64,000 bases of DNA from the NCBI RefSeq assembly GCF_024508335.1, contig NZ_CP101988.1, forward strand, positions 186,001 to 250,000, read 5' to 3'. This DNA is from Cellulomonas chengniuliangii (GTDB lineage Bacteria; Actinomycetota; Actinomycetes; Actinomycetales; Cellulomonadaceae). This document shows positions 1 to 52,155 of this stretch, piece after piece. The translations under genes and the position numbers were made by a program. The stretch's first letter is position 1. Each line of letters begins with the position of its first letter. The notes below the pieces were generated by a model that worked only from the letters and a program-made list of their open reading frames with translations, had not been told where the DNA came from and ran no database searches.

Positions 1-183
1 CAGCGAGAAGAAGTCCTCGAGCGGGGCATCCAGGAGGATGCTGCCGAGCCAACCGCCGAGCAGCGCGCCGATGACGCCGACGACGAGGGTGGCGATCCAC
101 CCACCCGCTTGCTTACCCGGCAGGATGGCCTTGGCGATGGCCCCCGCGAGCAGTCCGAGCAGCAGGAACGCTAAGAAACCCAT
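1..183 (-). CDS. GlsB/YeaQ/YmgE-family small membrane protein, partial
   Basis: The first 61 codons of a small integral membrane protein; the 3' end lies beyond the left edge. The N-terminus is one hydrophobic helix (GFLAFLLLGLLAGAIAKAI), then the short PGKQAGGW turn and a second glycine-rich helix (ATLVVGVIGALLGGWLGSIL). This is the pattern of the transglycosylase-associated GlsB/YeaQ/YmgE family, usually about 85-90 residues and linked to general or envelope stress; its biochemical role is not established. It is transcribed leftward, away from the tRNA gene. The family call rests on the two-helix glycine pattern and the PGK turn. Confidence 0.85.
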   Translation of the reverse strand, partial: MGFLAFLLLGLLAGAIAKAILPGKQAGGWIATLVVGVIGALLGGWLGSILLDAPLEDFFSL

Positions 184-379
184 GTCGACCTCCAGATGGT
201 TCGTATGCCGTTGACCGTCCCATGCCGATGACGGCGCCGCATCCGGAGGCCGCGGTCGGCGGGGCCGCTCATCGCCCGACGGGAAGCTCTGTGTGGCAGC
301 CGTCACCGCCGGGACGGGGAACTCGGTTTGGGTCCGGGGCGTCGGGGCGGTATTGTCATCGTCGGCCCGCAAGGGCCAC

Positions 380-452
380 GCGCCCGTAGCTCAATGGATA
401 GAGCATCTGACTACGGATCAGAAGGTTGGGGGTTCGAGTCCCTTCGGGCGCA
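380..452 (+). tRNA. tRNA-Arg (anticodon ACG)
   Basis: A complete 73-nt cloverleaf is visible. The acceptor stem GCGCCCG pairs with CGGGCGC and is followed by discriminator A. The anticodon stem TCTGA/TCAGA encloses the loop CTACGGA, giving anticodon ACG (read as ICG after deamination), which decodes CGU/CGC/CGA. The T loop has GGTTCGAGTCC. The 3' CCA is not encoded. A strong hairpin follows after 7 nt. Confidence 0.97.
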
Positions 453-459
453 CAGCAGA

Positions 460-492
460 CGAAGGCCCAGCACCGGTGGTGCTGGGCCTTCG
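460..492. terminator. Perfect 15-bp stem-loop, bidirectional terminator
   Basis: CGAAGGCCCAGCACC (460-474) pairs perfectly with 478-492 around a 3-nt loop. It lies just after tRNA-Arg and 29 bp beyond the stop of the opposing GH16 gene, so it can end transcription from both sides. Only a short, interrupted T run follows, as is common in high-GC actinobacteria. Confidence 0.8.
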
Positions 493-521
493 TCGTTGGC
501 GTGTGGACAGGTGTCAGGGCA

Positions 522-1799
522 TCACAGGGTCCACTGCTGGTTGGCGCCCCCGTGGCAGTTCCACAGGTTCACGCGCTGCCCGTCGTAGACCGGTGTGCCG
601 CCGACAGCGTCGAGGCAGCGGCCCGACTGCGGGTTCCGCAGTGCGCGTGTCGCCGAGTCGTACGTCCACTTCTGGGCGCCCGTGCCGTTGCACGTCCACA
701 GCTGCACGACGGTCCCGTTCTCCGTCCCGCCGCCCTGCACGTCCAGGCACTTGCCGAGCGCCCGGATCGTGCCGTCCGACCCTCGAGTCCACTGCTGGGC
801 GGCGTTGCCGTTGCAGCCGACCACCTGGATCGGGTTCCCGTCATGCGTCTGCGCCCAGGGCACGTCGAGGCACAGCGAGTTCGCGACGCGGAGGGTGCCG
901 GTGCCCGTCGGGAGCGTGCCGCCCCCGCCCCCGCCGCCTCCGCCGGACCCGGAGCCGTTGTCGTAGACGCGGACGTAGTCGACCTTCATCTGCTGGGGGA
1001 ACTGCGTGGTGCCGTCGGGGTAGCCGGGCCACTCGCCGCCGACGGCGACGTTGAGGATGAGGAAGTAGGGCTTATCGAACACCCAGGCGTTGGCGCCCAC
1101 GCTCGCCCTGGTGACCTGGTGGAAGACGGCGCCGTCGACCGACCAGGTGATGGAGCCGGGCTTCCAGTCCACGGCGAACGTGTGGAAGTCATCCGCGAAC
1201 GACCAGTTCTGCGGGTGCTGGTAGGCGCCCGTGATGCCGGCCCCGCCCGAGTAGCCAGGGCCGTGCACCGTGCCGTAGGTGCGGTGCGGCTCCTTGCCGA
1301 CGTTCTCCATGATGTCGATCTCGCCCGAGGAGGGCCACGGTGTCTGGGGGAAGTCCCCGCCGAGCATCCAGAACGCCGGCCAGATGCCCTGGCCGCGCGG
1401 GATCTGGATGCGCGCCTCGACGCGGCCGTACGCGAGCTCGACCTTGTTGTTGGTCTGCAGCCGCGCTGACGTGTACGACCCGTCGGCCTCGCGCCGGGCG
1501 GTGATGACGAGGTTGCCCTGCCCGTCGAGCGCGGAGTTGTTGCGGGACGTCGTGTAGTTTTGCAGCTCGGCGTTGCCCCAGCCGCCGGCGCCGGTGTCGT
1601 AGTTCCAGACGGACGGGTCGGGCGCGCTGCCGGCGGAGCCGTCGAACTCCTGGGACCACACGACGTCTCCGATCGCTGCCTCGGCAGGGCTGGCCGTCGA
1701 TGCCACCAGGCCGGCAGCGACGAGGGTGGCGACTCCGAGCGCGGCGGTGAGCCCGCGGGCTCGGTGGGTGGTGGTGGTGCGGGGGTGCGGGGGGTGCAT
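522..1799 (-). CDS. Secreted GH16 beta-1,3-glucanase (laminarinase type) with C-terminal ricin-B/CBM13 domain
   Basis: A 425-residue secreted endoglucanase. An Arg-containing signal peptide ends at about residue 41 (PAEA|AIGD). The GH16 fold spans about 44-280 and holds the signature GEIDIMENVG: E160 is the expected nucleophile, D162 the helper and E165 the acid/base. A poly-Gly linker (about 284-295) leads to a ricin-type beta-trefoil (about 300-425) with three QxW repeats (AQQW, AQKW, NQQW), which should bind glycans. The EIDIME spacing and the overall sequence suit laminarinase-type beta-1,3(4)-glucanases. The ATG at 1799 was preferred over an upstream ATG because AGGAGG lies 8 nt before it and the signal peptide begins there. 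The upstream DNA carries phased 23-bp repeats (2062-2140). Confidence 0.93.
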   Translation of the reverse strand: MHPPHPRTTTTHRARGLTAALGVATLVAAGLVASTASPAEAAIGDVVWSQEFDGSAGSAPDPSVWNYDTGAGGWGNAELQNYTTSRNNSALDGQGNLVITARREADGSYTSARLQTNNKVELAYGRVEARIQIPRGQGIWPAFWMLGGDFPQTPWPSSGEIDIMENVGKEPHRTYGTVHGPGYSGGAGITGAYQHPQNWSFADDFHTFAVDWKPGSITWSVDGAVFHQVTRASVGANAWVFDKPYFLILNVAVGGEWPGYPDGTTQFPQQMKVDYVRVYDNGSGSGGGGGGGGGTLPTGTGTLRVANSLCLDVPWAQTHDGNPIQVVGCNGNAAQQWTRGSDGTIRALGKCLDVQGGGTENGTVVQLWTCNGTGAQKWTYDSATRALRNPQSGRCLDAVGGTPVYDGQRVNLWNCHGGANQQWTL

Positions 1800-2181
1800 C
1801 TGTGCCTCCTGGATAGTCGGCGATCGGACGGGACCGGAATTGGCGCCGCCCGAGGGCACGTGTCGCGACGCTGCGCACGTGGGGGGCGACTAGTCCGTCC
1901 GAGGCCGACAGTAACGGCGACACTTGCCGACCGGCAGGTGCCCGGGAATGGAAACCGTTGTCGGATTTCGACCGAGTTGTCAATGAGCTCGCTCGATTGC
2001 CCGGGCGTCGGCCGCTGACGTGCATCACGGGAGTTCTTCTGCGGACCTCCGCACCGGAGTTCTGCAGAGTGACGCGACAAGCGTCTGCAAAGTGTTGTCT
2101 GACCAGTCTGCAAAGTGCAGCGTCGCAACCCTGCAGAGTGTCATCGAGGGTGGGACTCCCGCCGCGACCCGCAGCAGGCCG
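1800..2181. other. Intergenic promoter region of the GH16 gene
   Basis: This 382-bp stretch separates two leftward genes and must hold the GH16 promoter. No credible gene lies here; the open frames have no ribosome-binding site or family resemblance. Notable content is the four-copy CTGCARAGTG array at 2062-2140, listed separately. A short GGAAACCG half-site near 1950 could belong to a LacI-type operator, but no matching second half was found. Confidence 0.7.
2062..2140. repeat. Four CTGCARAGTG direct repeats with exact 23-bp period
   Basis: CTGCAGAGTG starts at 2062, CTGCAAAGTG at 2085 and 2108, and CTGCAGAGTG at 2131, so adjacent copies are exactly 23 bp apart. The 13-bp spacers are unrelated, so this is an array of spaced sites rather than a tandem duplication. 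A weaker in-phase copy (CTGCGGACCT) sits at 2039. Read toward the GH16 gene the motif is CACTYTGCAG. The array ends about 260 bp upstream of the GH16 start, which suits a cooperative regulator-binding region. The function is inferred; the periodicity is seen directly. Confidence 0.8.
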
Positions 2182-5100
2182 CTACCGCACGAGCAGGATC
2201 CGGGGGAGGGCTGCGGTGGCGGTGTAGTTCTGGTCGCCGCTGTAGAGCACGACGACCAGCGAGGTGCGCGTCCGGTCGGGCAGCCGCAGGGTGGCGGCGC
2301 CGTCGGGGCCGAGCGTGGCGGTGACGGTGGGGCCACCGACCACCCAGGCGCTCACGGTCCCGGTCGGCGTGACCCCATCGACGCCCTTGACCTGCGCCTG
2401 GACGACCTTGGGGTCATCACGTCTGACCGACCAGTCCGTGCCCGCCGTGGAGAGCGACGGGATGCCGCGCGTGACGACGTAGCGGGCCGGGCCGGACGTC
2501 GACGGCGCCACGTCGGCCGTGCCGCGGTAGGCGGCGACGACCTCGTGCGTGCCCGCGGGCAGGCTGTCGGGAAGGTCGATGCGGGCCTGCGCGCGGTTCG
2601 GCCCGGTGGCCACGAGCTCGCCGCTCGCGACGACCTCGCCGCCGACCAGCAGGTCGACCGTGCCGGTGGGGGCGGCGCCCTCGGCGCGTACCGTGACCGT
2701 CGCGGTGGCGCCGTGGCCGAGCGGCGCCCGCTCGCGTGAGAGGCGCAGCGTGGTCGTCGACTCGGCAGGCTCGGGCAGGTCGATGCCCGCCGCGGCGGCC
2801 AGCAGCGTGGCGGCCTCACCCGCACGGCCCGACATGAGCGCGTGCTCGGCGTCAGCGGTGAGCCGCACGGCGTCGTCGGCGGCCGTGCCCGCGATGACCG
2901 CGGCCTGGGCCACGTCGCGCAGCACCGACACGACGAGGTCGGCCTCGGGAGTCCACTCGCCGTCGAACGTCCCGGCCGCCGTGACGAGCAGGCGGACGGC
3001 CTGCGTCGTCGACTGCGGCGCCCCGGCGAGCGTGTCGCCGTCCCACACGTCGGCGTCGAGCACGGCCTGCACCGCGTCCCGCTGGGCGCCGGGCTCGAGC
3101 GACTCGACCACGTCGGCCAGGCGGGCGCGCTGCGCGTCGGTGCGCAGGCCCCAGCCGTAGGCGTACGCGGGCGCGTACGTCGCGTCGCCCACGTTCACCG
3201 GGACGCCGTCGGCGGTGGCCGGCCACGAGATGGGCAGGCGGCCGGTGAATGGCACGTCGCCGAACAGCACGTCCGCGACCCCCGCGCCCTCCGAGCCGGG
3301 CAGCCACGAGGCGACGAGCGCGTCGATCGCGTCGAGCCGGTCCGTGACCAGCTGCGGCCGGCCCGCCACCACGAGCACGACGCATTCCATCGCGTCGCAC
3401 ACCGCGTCGATCGCGGCCCGGTCCGCCGCGGGCAGCTCGAGGCTGCGGCCGTTGTTGCCCACGTCCCCGATGCCCTCGGCGTACGGGGGCTCCCCGACCA
3501 CGACCACGCCGACGTCCGCGCCGTCCATGGGCGCCGACGCGTCGGCCGAGTAGGTGACCTCGGCGCCCGGGGCAGCGGCGCGGATGCCCTCGAGGATCGA
3601 CGTCCCGGGAGTGATGTCGCCCGAGCCGCCCTGCCAGGAGATCGTCCAACCGCCCATCTGGTGGCCCAGGTCGTCGGCGTTGGACCCCGCGACGTAGAGG
3701 TGCTGGTCACGGCCCAACGGCAGCACGTCGTCGTCCTTGAGGAGCACCTGCGAGGCGGCCGCGGCCTCGCGGGCCACAGCGCGGTGCTCGGCCGAGCCGA
3801 CGGCGTCCGCGTGGGTGCGATCCGCGAGCGGCTGCTCGAACAGGCCCAGGTGCATCTTGGCGGTGAGGATGCGGCTCACCGCGTCGTCGACCCGCGCCTG
3901 GGACACGGCCCCGGACTCGACGTTCTGTGTGAGGGACGTGAGGAACGCGCCGAAGTTGTACGGCGCCATCGCCATGTCGAGGCCCGAGTTGACGCTCCGC
4001 GCCACCTTCTCGGTGTACGTGCCGCCCGGCAGCTTGTCGATGCCCTCCCAGTCGCTCACCAGGAACCCATCGAACCCGAGGTCACCCTTGAGCACCTCGG
4101 TGTTGAGCTGGGTGTGCTCGTGCATGCGTAACGGCCCGGCCCCGAGGTCCACCGCCGAGTAGGACGGCATGATCGAGCCGACGCCCGCCTCGATCGCGGG
4201 GACGTACGGGTCGCCGTGCACCCGCATCAGCTCGGCGAGCGAGCCCGCGTAGGTGATGCCCTGGTCGATCGGGTAGCCGGAGCCCGCGAGCGACGGCTCG
4301 TAGCGCGTGCCACCGTCACCGAGCCAGTGCTTGGCCGTCGCCAGCACCCGCCCGGGCCCGGACACGTCCGTTGGGTCGGGGCCCTGCAGCCCGATCACGG
4401 CGTCGTCGGCGAGCACCGACACGAGCGCCGGGTCCTCGCTGAACGCCTCGTAGCTGCGGCCCCACCGCTCGTCGCGCGTGACGCACAGGCACGGCGCGAA
4501 CGTCCACGGCACGCCCGTCGCGCGGGTCTCGACAGCCGTCGCCTCGCCCACCCGCCGCACCAGGTCGGGGTCGCGCGCGGCGCCCAGGCCGCTGTTGTGC
4601 GGGAAGATCGTCGCCCCCACCACGTTGTTGTGGCCGTGCACGGCGTCGACGCCGTAGATGAGCGGGACCTGCAGACGCGTCGAGAGGGCCTGGCGCTGGA
4701 ACCCGTCGACCATGTCGGCCCAGCCGGTCGCGGTGTTGTCCTGCGGCACGGAGCCCCCGCCGGAGAGCACCGACCCGAGCCCGAGCTCGGCGATCTGCGC
4801 GGGGGACTGCAGCCCCAGGCGCTCGGCCTGCGCCATCTGGCCGACCTTCTCCGCGAGCGTCATCCGCCCCAGCAGGTCCGCGACGCGCTCGTCCACGGGC
4901 GCCGTGCTGTCGAGGTACAGCGCCCCGACGGCGTTGAGCACCACCCGCGCCGACGTGGCGGCGAGGCCGTCCGCCGTGAGGGCCAGCGTGAACGACCGGG
5001 CGTCGTCCTCATCGGCCGTCGCGGCGGTGGCCACCTCGATGGTCTGCTCGGCGCCCGAGGCCGTGCCCGCGTCGAAGGTCAGCGTTCCGCTCGCGGCGGT

Positions 5101-7308
5101 GTAGTGGGTCCCGGCCGCGGCCGTGCCCGGCTGGTCGGTGAACGCGACCGTCACGGGCTCGGTCAGCGGCTCGCCGTCGGTCGTGGTCACGCGGACCCTG
5201 ACCTGGGCGGTCTCGCCCGGGTCCACCAGGACGACGTCGTCCACGGGGGCGACCGTCACCGTCGGGGCCGGCGTCGCGGAGCCGAACAGCTCGACGTCGT
5301 CGACGGCGAAGCGCACCGGCTGCGCGGTGCCGGGCACCATCGTCAGGGCGTACCCCCACGCGGAGGTGAGGTCGAGGGTCCCGTTGCGGGTGGCGGCGTC
5401 GCCGGGCTGGTACCCGCCGAGCCGGAAGTCCGCGAACGGGATCTCGACCACGCGCCACCGGCTGCCCTCGGGCGACCAGGTGTCCTTGAACGTCGCGGCC
5501 CACAGCTCGGAGTGCTCGCCGTCAGGGCCGCCGTCCTTGAGCTCGACCTTGATGTCCGCGCCCGCCGTCGGGGAGGCGGGACGGGTGTCCTGCGAGGCGT
5601 ACCAGAGCAGGCGGATGCCGTGGTACGAGCTCCAGTCCTGCGGGGCCGCGAGGTTGTGGCTGTAGCCGCCCCAGCCGCCGCCCGCGATGAGGTACTCGCC
5701 CGCGAGCACGTGGTTGCCCGCGGGCGCCCCGTCGCGGTCCTGCTGCTCGACGCCGAGCGACACCTGCGCGCCGTCCGAGCCCCAGGTGAAGTGCCCGACG
5801 GTGCCGCCCGGCTCGGCGAACGGCACGTCGCCCTCGAAGTCCTGGATGGTCGTGGCCCGCTCGTACAGGGCGATGTCGTCGAACTGCCAGGCCCCGGGGC
5901 CCAGGTCGGTCAGCGTGACCGCGAACCCGGTGGCCGCGGCGGGGTCGAACCGCGCGTCGGAGGCCGGGTCGCCCTTGAGGCGCAGCTGCGCGAACGCGAC
6001 GCTCACCTGGCGCCATCCGGCGGTGTCGTCGACGACCGAGCGCTCGAACAGCTGGCCGCCGCTCTTGAGCTCGAACCGCAGCTGGCCGCCGGCGCCCGTC
6101 CCGTGGAACCAGAACGCGAACCCGTCGTGCGCCGACCAGTCGGCGGACGCCGCGAGGTCATGGGTGAATCCGAACCAGTCGCCGGCGGCGGGGGCGCCTC
6201 CGACCAGCGCCTGGAGCGCCTGGTTGCCCGCGGGGGCGCCCGCCCTGTCCGCCGCGACGGTTGAGAGCGCCGGGGTCACGGACGCGGCGCTGCCCCATGT
6301 GGTGTACCCGGCGGGCACGCCCGACTCGAAGTCGTCGAGCACGTGCGCCGAGCCCACGTCGGGCAGGTCGCCGTGCGGGGTGATGGTGACGGTCGACGTG
6401 GTGCGGCCGCCCAGCAGCACGCCCGTCGGGTCGGTGAGGGTCAGCTCCACGGTCGTCACCGGGGCCAGCGGCCCGTGGTCGACCGTCTCGACGGCGACCT
6501 GCTGGGTCGTGGCGCCTGCGGGGATGGTCACGACCTGGTCGAGTGCCGTGTAGTCCGTGCCCGGGGCCGCGGTCCCGCCGGTCGAGGCCACCCGCACGGT
6601 GACGTCGCCCTCGGCGGGCGCGTTGAGCAGCAGCGGCACGGTGGCAGTCCCGCCGGCGGGCACCGACGTGGCGCCGCGCGCGAAGGACACCACGACGTCA
6701 TCGGGCACGCCCAGGACCTCGAGGGAGTACAGCGAGTACCCGTACCAGTGCGGGCGGGCCGGGTCCCAGTCGAACGCGACCCGCTCCAGCATGACGACGC
6801 GCACGTACCGGGCGTCGGCGGGGGCGTCGAACGTCACGGTGTCGGACCCGCCGTCGCTCGCCTCGGACGCGACGGTGGTCCAGCTCGCGTCGTCCTCGGG
6901 GGCGGCAGTGGCCACCTGCACCTCGTAGGACGCCGCGTACGCGTCCTCCCACGCCAGCGTGACGCCGTCGACAGCGGCCGAGGCGCCCAGGTCGACCTGG
7001 AGCCACGCGGTGAACTCGACGTCCTCGTCGGGCCCGTTGCCGCTGGCCCACCGCGTGCCGGGGTCGCCATCGATCGCGTGGGACGCCGGGAACGAGCCGT
7101 CGACGTCGTCCTGCGAGGCGGAGGCCGTCGCGACGCCCGTGCGGGCGAGGTCTGTCGCTGCGAGCGCCGGCGTCGCGGTGGTGACGAGGGCCCCGGGGAC
7201 CAGCATCGCGAGGAGTCCGACCATGGCGGCGCGTCGCCGTCGTCGTGGTGGGGGCGCGCTCGGCGCCGTGCGGTGGGTCGACCAGGACGTGCGCAGGGCT
7301 CCGGACAC
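2182..7308 (-). CDS. Giant secreted multidomain GH3 glycosidase (discoidin, Calx-beta, carbohydrate-binding and Ig-like domains)
   Basis: A 1,708-residue secreted enzyme. The signal peptide ends at ALA (about 50). Domains in order: F5/8 discoidin-like (about 55-200), Calx-beta (about 205-312), two CBM11/CIA30-like beta-sandwiches each opening with a D-F-E motif (about 322-475 and 485-675), a second Calx-beta (about 680-790), GH3 N-terminal barrel (about 800-1120), GH3 C-terminal sandwich (about 1150-1400), a helical spacer (about 1430-1505) and two Ig-like repeats (about 1512-1708). The predicted nucleophile is Asp of LVSDWEG (about D1086). GH3 enzymes are usually 600-900 residues, so this is unusually large. 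GH3 members act as exo-beta-glucosidases or xylosidases; the extra domains suggest binding to insoluble polysaccharide. The GTG start is preceded by AAGGAG. There is no LPXTG or dockerin at the C-terminus. Confidence 0.9.
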   Translation of the reverse strand: MSGALRTSWSTHRTAPSAPPPRRRRRAAMVGLLAMLVPGALVTTATPALAATDLARTGVATASASQDDVDGSFPASHAIDGDPGTRWASGNGPDEDVEFTAWLQVDLGASAAVDGVTLAWEDAYAASYEVQVATAAPEDDASWTTVASEASDGGSDTVTFDAPADARYVRVVMLERVAFDWDPARPHWYGYSLYSLEVLGVPDDVVVSFARGATSVPAGGTATVPLLLNAPAEGDVTVRVASTGGTAAPGTDYTALDQVVTIPAGATTQQVAVETVDHGPLAPVTTVELTLTDPTGVLLGGRTTSTVTITPHGDLPDVGSAHVLDDFESGVPAGYTTWGSAASVTPALSTVAADRAGAPAGNQALQALVGGAPAAGDWFGFTHDLAASADWSAHDGFAFWFHGTGAGGQLRFELKSGGQLFERSVVDDTAGWRQVSVAFAQLRLKGDPASDARFDPAAATGFAVTLTDLGPGAWQFDDIALYERATTIQDFEGDVPFAEPGGTVGHFTWGSDGAQVSLGVEQQDRDGAPAGNHVLAGEYLIAGGGWGGYSHNLAAPQDWSSYHGIRLLWYASQDTRPASPTAGADIKVELKDGGPDGEHSELWAATFKDTWSPEGSRWRVVEIPFADFRLGGYQPGDAATRNGTLDLTSAWGYALTMVPGTAQPVRFAVDDVELFGSATPAPTVTVAPVDDVVLVDPGETAQVRVRVTTTDGEPLTEPVTVAFTDQPGTAAAGTHYTAASGTLTFDAGTASGAEQTIEVATAATADEDDARSFTLALTADGLAATSARVVLNAVGALYLDSTAPVDERVADLLGRMTLAEKVGQMAQAERLGLQSPAQIAELGLGSVLSGGGSVPQDNTATGWADMVDGFQRQALSTRLQVPLIYGVDAVHGHNNVVGATIFPHNSGLGAARDPDLVRRVGEATAVETRATGVPWTFAPCLCVTRDERWGRSYEAFSEDPALVSVLADDAVIGLQGPDPTDVSGPGRVLATAKHWLGDGGTRYEPSLAGSGYPIDQGITYAGSLAELMRVHGDPYVPAIEAGVGSIMPSYSAVDLGAGPLRMHEHTQLNTEVLKGDLGFDGFLVSDWEGIDKLPGGTYTEKVARSVNSGLDMAMAPYNFGAFLTSLTQNVESGAVSQARVDDAVSRILTAKMHLGLFEQPLADRTHADAVGSAEHRAVAREAAAASQVLLKDDDVLPLGRDQHLYVAGSNADDLGHQMGGWTISWQGGSGDITPGTSILEGIRAAAPGAEVTYSADASAPMDGADVGVVVVGEPPYAEGIGDVGNNGRSLELPAADRAAIDAVCDAMECVVLVVAGRPQLVTDRLDAIDALVASWLPGSEGAGVADVLFGDVPFTGRLPISWPATADGVPVNVGDATYAPAYAYGWGLRTDAQRARLADVVESLEPGAQRDAVQAVLDADVWDGDTLAGAPQSTTQAVRLLVTAAGTFDGEWTPEADLVVSVLRDVAQAAVIAGTAADDAVRLTADAEHALMSGRAGEAATLLAAAAGIDLPEPAESTTTLRLSRERAPLGHGATATVTVRAEGAAPTGTVDLLVGGEVVASGELVATGPNRAQARIDLPDSLPAGTHEVVAAYRGTADVAPSTSGPARYVVTRGIPSLSTAGTDWSVRRDDPKVVQAQVKGVDGVTPTGTVSAWVVGGPTVTATLGPDGAATLRLPDRTRTSLVVVLYSGDQNYTATAALPRILLVR

Positions 7309-50537: not shown

Positions 50538-52025
50538 TCAGCGGTTGCCCGAGTGCCGGTCCAGGAACGCGTAGACCTCCGCGTCGTCCACCCCGGGGAA
50601 CGTGCCCTGCGGCAGCGGGCTGAGCACCTGGGCGTGCATGCGCGCGCTGGGCCACGACTGGTCGGCCCACCGAGTGGCGAGCTCCGGGTCGGGGCGGCGG
50701 CAGCACGAGGCGTCGGGGCAGCGGGACGTGGTGCGCAGCGTGGTGTCCCGGCCGCGGAACCACTTGGCGTGCGCGAACGGGACGCCGACGGTGATGGAGA
50801 ACTCGCCCGAGTCGGCGGTGCCCGTCTGAGCGGTGCACCAGAACGTGCCCGCGGGGGTGTCGGTGTACTGGTGGTACTCGGTGGTGCGGTCGCGGCTGGT
50901 CAGCGCCGCGCGGGCGGCCCACTGCCGGCACACGTGCTGGCCCTCGATCGCCCCTGTGGGGTCGGTGGCGAAGCCCACCCCGTCGTTCTCGTAGCCGCGG
51001 GTCAGCGCCCCCGCGTCGTCCACCCGCAGGAAGTGCACGGGCAGGCCGAGGCCGCTGGTGGCGAGGTTGGTGAACCGGTGCGCGGCGGCCTCGTGGGTCA
51101 CGCCGAACGCGTCGCGGAAGTCCTCGATGGCCAGGTCCTTCGCCCGCTTGGCGGCGTTCAGGTGCTCGAGCGCCGCGGTGCGGGGCATGAGGCAGGCAGC
51201 GGCGAAGTACGTGATCTCGAGCCGCTGCCGCAGGAAGTCCGCGTACGACGCGGGGCGCGTGTGGCCGAGCACCCGGTGCGCTATCGCCTGCAGGGCGAGC
51301 GATCGCAGGCCGTGGCCGCCGGGGATCGACGCGGGCGGCAGGTAGATGCGGCCCGATGCCAGGTCGGTGACGGTGCGGGTCGAGTGCGGCAGGTCCGTGA
51401 CGTGCAGGATCTCGAAGCCGAGCTGCTCGGCCATCCGCGCGACGGCGCGGTGGGTCAGGGCGCCCACGGTGTACCCGGCGGCGCGTGCCATCTGCTCGCC
51501 CACGGCGTCGATCTCCGGCAGGCAGTTGTCCTGCTCCTGCATCCACAGGCGCAGCTCGGTGTTCGCGCGGCGGGCCTCCTCGGGGGTGGCGATCGACTCG
51601 TTGACGCGGCGTGCGAGCTCGTCGTGCAGGCCGACCAGCGCCTCGAGGGCCTCGGTGGGCACCGAGCGGCCGGGGCGGACGGTGGGCAGCCCGAGGCCGC
51701 TGTACAGCGACGTGCGCTGCGCCCGGTCCAGGGCGATCTCCAGGGCCGCGCGCCGGTTGGGCGGCTCGGCGGCGAGCAGGTCGGCCAGATCGACGTCGAG
51801 GGCGGCGGCGATCTCCTGGAGCAGGGACAGCCGGGGCTCGCGGTGGCCGTTCTCGATCAGCGAGAGCTGGCTGGCGGCCGATCCGGTGGCCTGCGCGAGC
51901 TGGTCCAGGGTCAGGGACCGCTGGGCGCGGAAGTGGCGGATCCGCCGGCCCAGCGTGAGCAGGTCCCCGGTGCGGGGCTTGCCCGGGGGCTCGGCACGCG
52001 GTGAGACCGGGGGTCGAGGGCTCAT
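50538..52025 (-). CDS. RamB/ScfR-type XRE-ImmA-family transcriptional regulator
   Basis: A 495-residue regulator. An XRE HTH (about 25-85: TLDQLAQATGSAASQLSLIENGHREPRLSLLQEIAAALDVDLADLL) is followed by an ImmA/IrrE-like domain with a degenerate metalloprotease motif (ALQAIAHRVLGHT, lacking the usual HEXXH Glu) and a C-terminal short-chain acyl-CoA regulator domain (about 320-495) rich in Cys (CPDASCCRR). Relatives include RamB (acetate and glyoxylate metabolism) and PrpR/ScfR, which sense acyl-CoAs. The divergent neighbour pckG suggests control of gluconeogenesis. ATG at 52025 follows AAGAG. Confidence 0.9.
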   Translation of the reverse strand: MSPRPPVSPRAEPPGKPRTGDLLTLGRRIRHFRAQRSLTLDQLAQATGSAASQLSLIENGHREPRLSLLQEIAAALDVDLADLLAAEPPNRRAALEIALDRAQRTSLYSGLGLPTVRPGRSVPTEALEALVGLHDELARRVNESIATPEEARRANTELRLWMQEQDNCLPEIDAVGEQMARAAGYTVGALTHRAVARMAEQLGFEILHVTDLPHSTRTVTDLASGRIYLPPASIPGGHGLRSLALQAIAHRVLGHTRPASYADFLRQRLEITYFAAACLMPRTAALEHLNAAKRAKDLAIEDFRDAFGVTHEAAAHRFTNLATSGLGLPVHFLRVDDAGALTRGYENDGVGFATDPTGAIEGQHVCRQWAARAALTSRDRTTEYHQYTDTPAGTFWCTAQTGTADSGEFSITVGVPFAHAKWFRGRDTTLRTTSRCPDASCCRRPDPELATRWADQSWPSARMHAQVLSPLPQGTFPGVDDAEVYAFLDRHSGNR

Positions 52026-52155
52026 CTCTTGACAGTAGCGAAAGATCGCCGGTTCTTGACCCCTTCGCCCGGTTGAAGACCGTCCGTACATCACTCAGGG
52101 TGGGAATTGCGAGGCCTACGGCCCCGCCCTCGACCGCCAAGGAGGCCGATCTCCC

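Follow-up and report, generated by a model that had tools for sequence, protein, structure and literature searches.

The repeat array upstream of a GH16 glucanase gene in Cellulomonas chengniuliangii is probably the orphaned promoter-operator of a deleted gene, which encoded a PDC-S01-type ATPase with AAA_14 and DUF4143 domains and once lay between a tRNA-Arg gene and a GH3 glycosidase gene. The window, by which we mean the whole 64,000-nt stretch of NZ_CP101988.1 that was analysed, comes from a genome of 3.57 Mb, and its relevant features are given in Table 1.

Table 1. Positions of the array and its neighbours in the window (L064 is the corresponding locus of C. cellasea)
Feature	Position	Strand	Remark
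tRNA-Arg(acg), left syntenic anchor	380..453	+	inside 82% match to L064
GH16 glucanase with ricin-type lectin; adjoins the array, not its target on present evidence	522..1799	-	
Possible degenerate fifth core, weak	2039..2048	+	6/10 core positions
Probable orphan operator/promoter array of a lost DUF4143 ATPase gene	2059..2153	+	79% to L064 3694-3788 (95 bp)
Repeat core 1, CTGCAGAGTG	2062..2071	+	aligned to C. cellasea L064 3697
Repeat core 2, CTGCAAAGTG	2085..2094	+	exact CTGCARAGTG match
Repeat core 3, CTGCAAAGTG	2108..2117	+	exact CTGCARAGTG match
Repeat core 4, CTGCAGAGTG	2131..2140	+	exact CTGCARAGTG match
Inferred deletion junction	2154..2181	.	28 bp where C. cellasea has a 1,257-bp reading frame
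GH3 glycosidase gene, right syntenic anchor	2182..7308	-	88.6% to L064 over 2182-4918
XRE-HTH protein, initially proposed as RamB-like; no array link found	50538..52094	-	

Structure of the Repeat Array

The initial annotation described four copies of the core CTGCARAGTG at an exact pitch of 23 bp, separated by unrelated spacers. All four are exact matches on the plus strand, so that the array holds at least three core copies spaced exactly 23 bp, and the spacers share 1–4 of 13 positions between copies, indicating that the core and the pitch alone are kept. The degenerate fifth copy proposed in phase upstream does agree with the core at the positions counted in Table 1, but a score of six or more is reached by 2.9% of the window positions, and hence this copy is weak and is not needed for the interpretation of the array.

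None of 100 dinucleotide shuffles of the window contained four exact matches, the mean being 0.20. When one mismatch is allowed, the window count is 4 against 5.55 expected, indicating that the exact cores in phase carry the signal. The genome scan for core pairs that the initial annotation had proposed as a check covered the 3.57-Mb genome with gaps of 10–16 bp; it found three exact pairs, all at the window array, and the reversed control pattern gave none. The longer word CTGCARAGTGT occurs at two sites genome-wide, both in the array. The shuffles and the genome-wide pair scan together rule out a chance origin. Selected protein binding at an exact pitch, as first suggested, is supported by sequence comparison: the cores are identical to those of the C. 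cellasea array at 38 of 40 positions and the spacers at 34 of 52, and the 23-bp pitch recurs across phyla. No phage target with this exact core pair was found in the viral contigs collection.

Probable Deletion of an ATPase Gene between tRNA-Arg and GH3

The order in C. cellasea is tRNA-Arg, array, AAA_14 and DUF4143 ATPase gene, and GH3. L064 3115–3600 aligns with window 1–498 at 82% identity, the tRNA-Arg gene included, and L064 5259–7995 aligns with window 2182–4918 at about 89% in GH3; the array match between them (Table 1) makes the window array a homologue of one that heads an intact DUF4143 ATPase gene. This gene occupies L064 3795–5051, between the array and GH3, and the homologous array ends 6 bp before its ATG at 3795. 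A cognate gene directly downstream of the window array on the same strand was not found in the window or in the genome, and so the array is an orphan; PF13635 (DUF4143) has no match in the genome, nor does the C. cellasea ATPase protein at 1e-10.

The simplest account of this arrangement is a deletion whose limits nearly coincide with those of the reading frame. Window 2169–2181 is the same 13 bp that follow the stop codon of a DUF4143 gene remnant in the genus mate G108, and the G108 match beginning at window 2169 extends for 53 bp at 89% and runs into the end of GH3. The G108 flank is 97% identical to that of C. cellasea, and pieces of the ATPase gene, of 54 bp (91%), 119 bp (86%) and 26 bp (88%), remain next to the corresponding tRNA gene; no array was seen in the stretch inspected beside these pieces. 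We infer that the gene was lost from the window locus and not gained elsewhere. Alternatively, the ATPase gene could have been gained beside an older array, in which case the 13 bp could be old flank on the GH3 side.

On the deletion account, the pattern of divergence bears on its age. All four cores are intact; of the spacer positions, 22 of 39 in the first three spacers are shared with C. cellasea, as are 12 of 13 in the last. Since the last spacer and the 13-bp 3' flank are kept and have no evident use without the gene, we take the deletion to be recent, and a recent deletion means that the intact cores require no new function. At the G108 locus (L116), GH3 seems to be missing as well; what is left of it next to the fragments of the ATPase gene is about 40 bp from its 3' end.

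The ATPase Family Headed by the Arrays

A core-pair scan of the genome contigs collection gave 65 loci. In a coherent set among them, from Isoptericola, Ruania, Tessaracoccus, Slackia, Acidimicrobiia and C. cellasea, one gene for an ATPase of about 418–437 residues is immediately preceded by two or more exact copies spaced 23 bp apart. A protein profile was seeded with eight of these ATPases, the seeds being chosen for their position after an array, and by this profile 11 of the 65 loci have a complete family gene on the strand of the array and 25–77 bp beyond it, namely the eight seeds and L007, L046 and L050. The archaeal locus L020 has a twelfth array-headed gene, cut by the end of the locus, and L013 and L067 hold gene parts only. 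Most of the 65 loci have no family gene by the profile; they resemble tandem repeats of other origin or coincidences in coding sequence and were set aside.

The C. cellasea protein matches AAA_14 (PF13173) and DUF4143 (PF13635), both over the cut-off, and it matches the models of PDC-S01, a PADLOC phage defence candidate, with a best value of 8.1e-66. In the accessible text of PMC12988326, PDC-S01 consists of an ATPase domain joined to a PD-(D/E)-X-K superfamily member and, by one study's count, ranks fourth in frequency among the defences of prokaryotes; the text adds that most such core-defensome candidates still await validation. An upstream repeat array, the point in which the genes described here differ, is not mentioned in the accessible parts of PMC12988326 and PMC13356809. 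In the C-terminal region, the acidic/ExK-type residues Asp-337, Glu-342, Asp-344, Glu-358 and Lys-360 (D337, E342, D344, E358 and K360) are kept in all 11 aligned proteins. PDB sequence searches for a solved structure of the ATPase gave nothing useful; its middle region may form a winged helix.

Fixed Pitch and Gene-Specific Repeat Words

Relatives of the C. cellasea protein at 1e-10 are present in 95 of 221 family genomes, and 90 loci (30 plus 60 among the matches listed) were taken, of which 89 were scored; L185 was left out for want of a recognisable ATP-binding motif. The scored region was the 230 bp ending 45 bp before the ATP-binding motif, first codons included, and periods of 15–40 were compared. 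The strongest upstream period is 23 in 76 of these 89 related actinobacterial genes, and in 65 of the 89 it is both on top and equalled in no more than one of 200 dinucleotide shuffles. Among the 13 exceptions, two have period 24, L172 and L187 have 23 as second best, and nine have a similar N-terminus by eye. In control windows taken from the 30 of these loci with long flanks, 23 came out strongest once among 87 far-upstream windows and never among 118 intragenic ones, and scores of at least 29 occurred in 7 of the 87 and 2 of the 118.

The repeat words mostly differ between genes: 48 of 56 within-genome pairs are not above the 99th percentile of a shuffled null, and eight are. In 300 pairs formed by 25 full-length genes, unit similarity is 0.40–0.42 at 40–60% protein identity, against a null median of 0.38, and is 0.50 at 60–70% identity and 0.63 above 70%. 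The Mantel correlation between unit and protein is modest (rho 0.21, reached by 44 of 2000 permutations), and unit similarity is unexpectedly high in the bin below 40% identity (median 0.47, 26 pairs), exceeding that of pairs at 45–50% (0.40). The array is probably a tandem promoter-operator that is private to its gene and bound by the product of that gene.

A fresh set took in every plasmid record in which a relative was found at 1e-20 (11 records, 29–43% identity), from Collinsella, Bacteroides, Prosthecochloris, Lentilactobacillus, Actinomyces, Azotobacter and Spartinivicinus, together with the one viral contig found. In this set, which includes four Collinsella with two of them nearly alike, 23 is the strongest period in 12 of 12 genes; none of 200 shuffles reaches it in 11 genes and 3 of 200 do in one.

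PF13635 is found in 13 of 20 genomes that were reached by way of other loci; 70 loci were examined and 68 scored. Period 23 is on top in 11 of these 68 DUF4143 loci and a period of 32–34 in 31. When the loci were sorted after the fact by N-terminal sequence, 32–34 was found in 19 of 21 WK-type loci and 23 in 7 of 8 CGKT-type loci, and the 39 others were mixed; 14 of these 39 pass the shuffle threshold at mixed periods, and so the rule is not valid for all DUF4143 proteins. For a fresh test, 58 plasmid records have a WK-type relative, and 12 were chosen among the 30 that were listed, so as to avoid near-copies. Period 32 or 33 is on top in nine of the 12, being reached by at most 5 of 200 shuffles in eight and by 111 of 200 in L325, and L322, L326 and L329 show no period signal. 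The pitches of 23 and 32–34 bp differ by about one helical turn. Not all the sequences analysed are independent, several being from close species or paralogues, and the regions of L238 and L239 overlap. In the second-subfamily loci L225, L232–L242 and L320–L331, several units hold a GAAAAAGTGT-like word resembling the CTGCAAAGTGT core.

Position of the Arrays Relative to the Promoter

In 74 genes with an assignable start, start codons being assigned by a simple rule, the block of the three best copies ends at a median of 25 bp before the assigned start (quartiles 9–33, range −6 to 72). A TANNNT is found no more than 25 bp from the start in 46 of the 74 genes, 39 of these at −12 or −13, against 3.0 in control windows; TANNNT at −12/−13 of the start is the layout of leaderless actinobacterial promoters. 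Judged by sequence alone, direct repeats lie over the gene's own promoter in many genes of the family, a statement that applies to the family and not to the orphan array. Since TANNNT is found near the start in two of seven genes with the core type of the window (L085–L091), the C. cellasea gene being without it, overlap with the promoter is clear for the family at large and less so for this core type.

Possible Mechanism of Array Recognition

The ATPase may bind the core of about 10 bp in each 23-bp unit of its own array, and its protomers would then stand side by side along the DNA with a pitch fixed by the protein. The array-bound ATPase would keep its own promoter repressed until titration or activation of the protein, and such autoregulation is the most likely working of the array. 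In a wider and more tentative hypothesis, which we hold possible rather than probable, the AAA_14/DUF4143 ATPase-nucleases would be modular, fast-diversifying, sequence-specific DNA readers: each gene would have a private tandem address read by its own product alone, the pitch (23 or 32–34 bp) would be a structural constant of the subfamily, and a co-operative protein array would both silence the promoter and sense invading DNA.

The array might instead serve beyond an operator, as a loading or target site of the ATPase-nuclease (e.g., a sensor platform or a mobility site) with transcription control being secondary. The acidic/ExK-type residues kept in 11 of 11 proteins, the PD-(D/E)-X-K member described for PDC-S01 in the accessible text of PMC12988326, and the presence of 4–6 exact copies in some arrays (L056, L020) would fit such a role. 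We nevertheless regard it as unlikely, because the arrays lie just 5' of the start codon and over the promoter in many genes, which is the place of an operator. Moreover, among five N-truncated genes found without regard to arrays (L300, L303, L304, L305 and L307; L306 lies at a contig end), the array is kept in two (L307 and, at a lower score of 27, L303), and so array-linked breakage is not clear.

Less probable still is the binding of the arrays by a separate host regulator in place of the ATPase. Small HTH genes within about 200 bp upstream of three of the 11 plasmid copies speak for such a regulator, but the words differ in the great majority of the within-genome pairs (48 of 56), so that one host regulator would need to read many words, and in the scan of 221 genomes the 11 with a same-type pair each have it at a single place (the pair in G116 looks like chance).

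Relation to Known Direct-Repeat Operators

Direct-repeat operators are already known. According to the accessible text of PMC12255303, RptR is a direct-repeat autorepressor of a defence island and thus a precedent for autoregulation by the ATPase: the first gene of the defence locus encodes a protein that binds a run of direct repeats in the promoter of the locus. RptR is, however, a 9-kDa repressor acting on 9-bp repeats with a TAGCTA palindrome (PMC12255303, accessible text), whereas the arrays described here have a pitch of 23 or 32–34 bp, their words vary from gene to gene, and it is the ATPase that is the candidate binder. The core CTGCARAGTG contains no TAGCTA and is not a palindrome. 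The SARP and LAL regulators of Streptomyces are likewise large, ATP-binding proteins on direct repeats, in their case heptameric, but they belong to other protein families and their operators have another repeat length. In the literature searched, which fell short of most subscription papers and preprints, we found no account of a fixed pitch combined with gene-specific words for this abundant candidate defence family.

A fixed-pitch, gene-specific array provides a molecular handle on the family, namely a candidate DNA ligand for each member, and the arrays alone offer a way to locate lost or hidden gene copies. Judging from the repeat words, the operator–protein pairs look mutually private.

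The GH16 Gene and the RamB-Like Protein

The array lies about 263–341 bp upstream of the GH16 start, and its cores read away from GH16. Control of this gene by the array, as the initial annotation had proposed, is not supported by the orthologues. GH16 matches at 1e-60 occur in 92 of 221 family genomes, and 30 loci among these were examined, the window locus included. The 29 others comprise 26 with 600 bp upstream and L283 with 462 bp, giving 27 informative loci; L294, with 34 bp upstream, and L295, which runs off its contig, were left out as uninformative. CTGCARAGTG within one mismatch on either strand is absent upstream of GH16 in all 27, against four sites at the window locus. Upstream of GH16, L271 and L272 have other blocks in common with the window, e.g., GTTACTGTC and GTGCGCAGCGT, and the most widespread 10-mer upstream of GH16 is found in 11 of the 30 loci. 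The array therefore gives no evidence on glucanase control, and a likely false lead is removed for this genome.

GH16 has no match in the genus mates G104, G105, G106 and G108; it is 81% identical in G103 and G107, and its closest relatives (88–91%) are in another genus. The missing matches in four genus mates and the high identity to genes of another genus suggest that GH16 was acquired beside the tRNA. The gene is now placed between tRNA-Arg and the array.

It is very unlikely that the orphan array was retained because it now controls GH16 or something else. The four cores are intact although the first three spacers have diverged from C. cellasea, and the array is near the GH16 start, as retention would have it; on the other hand, the last spacer and the 13-bp 3' flank are preserved as well, as a recent deletion predicts, the 27 orthologue loci are without a site, the sites point away from GH16, and no DUF4143 protein is found in the genome.

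The initial annotation noted that the core resembles that of RamB sites and linked the two as a hypothesis; on this reading, the sites would place the glucanase under acetate or carbon control. The published RamB site of Corynebacterium is AA/GAACTTTGCAAA according to the accessible text of PMC4448153, and the array has its TTTGCA core when read on the other strand; by eye, the ACTTTGCA part alone is in common, and a 13-bp site differs from a 23-bp array, with no genomic link found between the two. The resemblance and the encoded XRE-HTH protein both stand, but the IrrE-like and ScfRs matches of this protein are weak and below their cut-offs. With 27 of 27 informative orthologue upstreams lacking a site, CTGCARAGTGT absent from the rest of the genome and the homologous arrays heading DUF4143 ATPase genes, RamB control of GH16 is hardly credible and was rejected.

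Other Orphan Arrays and Gene Relics

Same-type arrays with no gene found or with gene remains only occur in G061, G010, G133 and G140 and at L013, L028, L045 and L067, and so turnover of the ATPase gene looks frequent from these sequences. Fragments of the ATPase gene lie right behind the array in the relics G133, G140, L067 and G217/L307, a sample that is biased in that G133, G140 and L067 were found through their arrays. Deletions starting at the array are not claimed, the array being kept in just two of the five N-truncated genes that were found without this bias. L136, L137, L138 and L139, like L067, L013, L028 and L045, are geneless same-type arrays, some of this group being fused to ATPase gene fragments.

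In Bacteroidales, L017, L023, L024, L060 and L049 carry tandem arrays of 23 bp that contain a GTGCAGAGTG word; several of the arrays are near-perfect, and the seed profile finds no family gene at these loci. In Saccharibacteria, L035 has a same-type core pair that lies immediately past a DUF4143 gene on its 3' side, and L208 in the same genome is a gene with its own upstream period-23 array.
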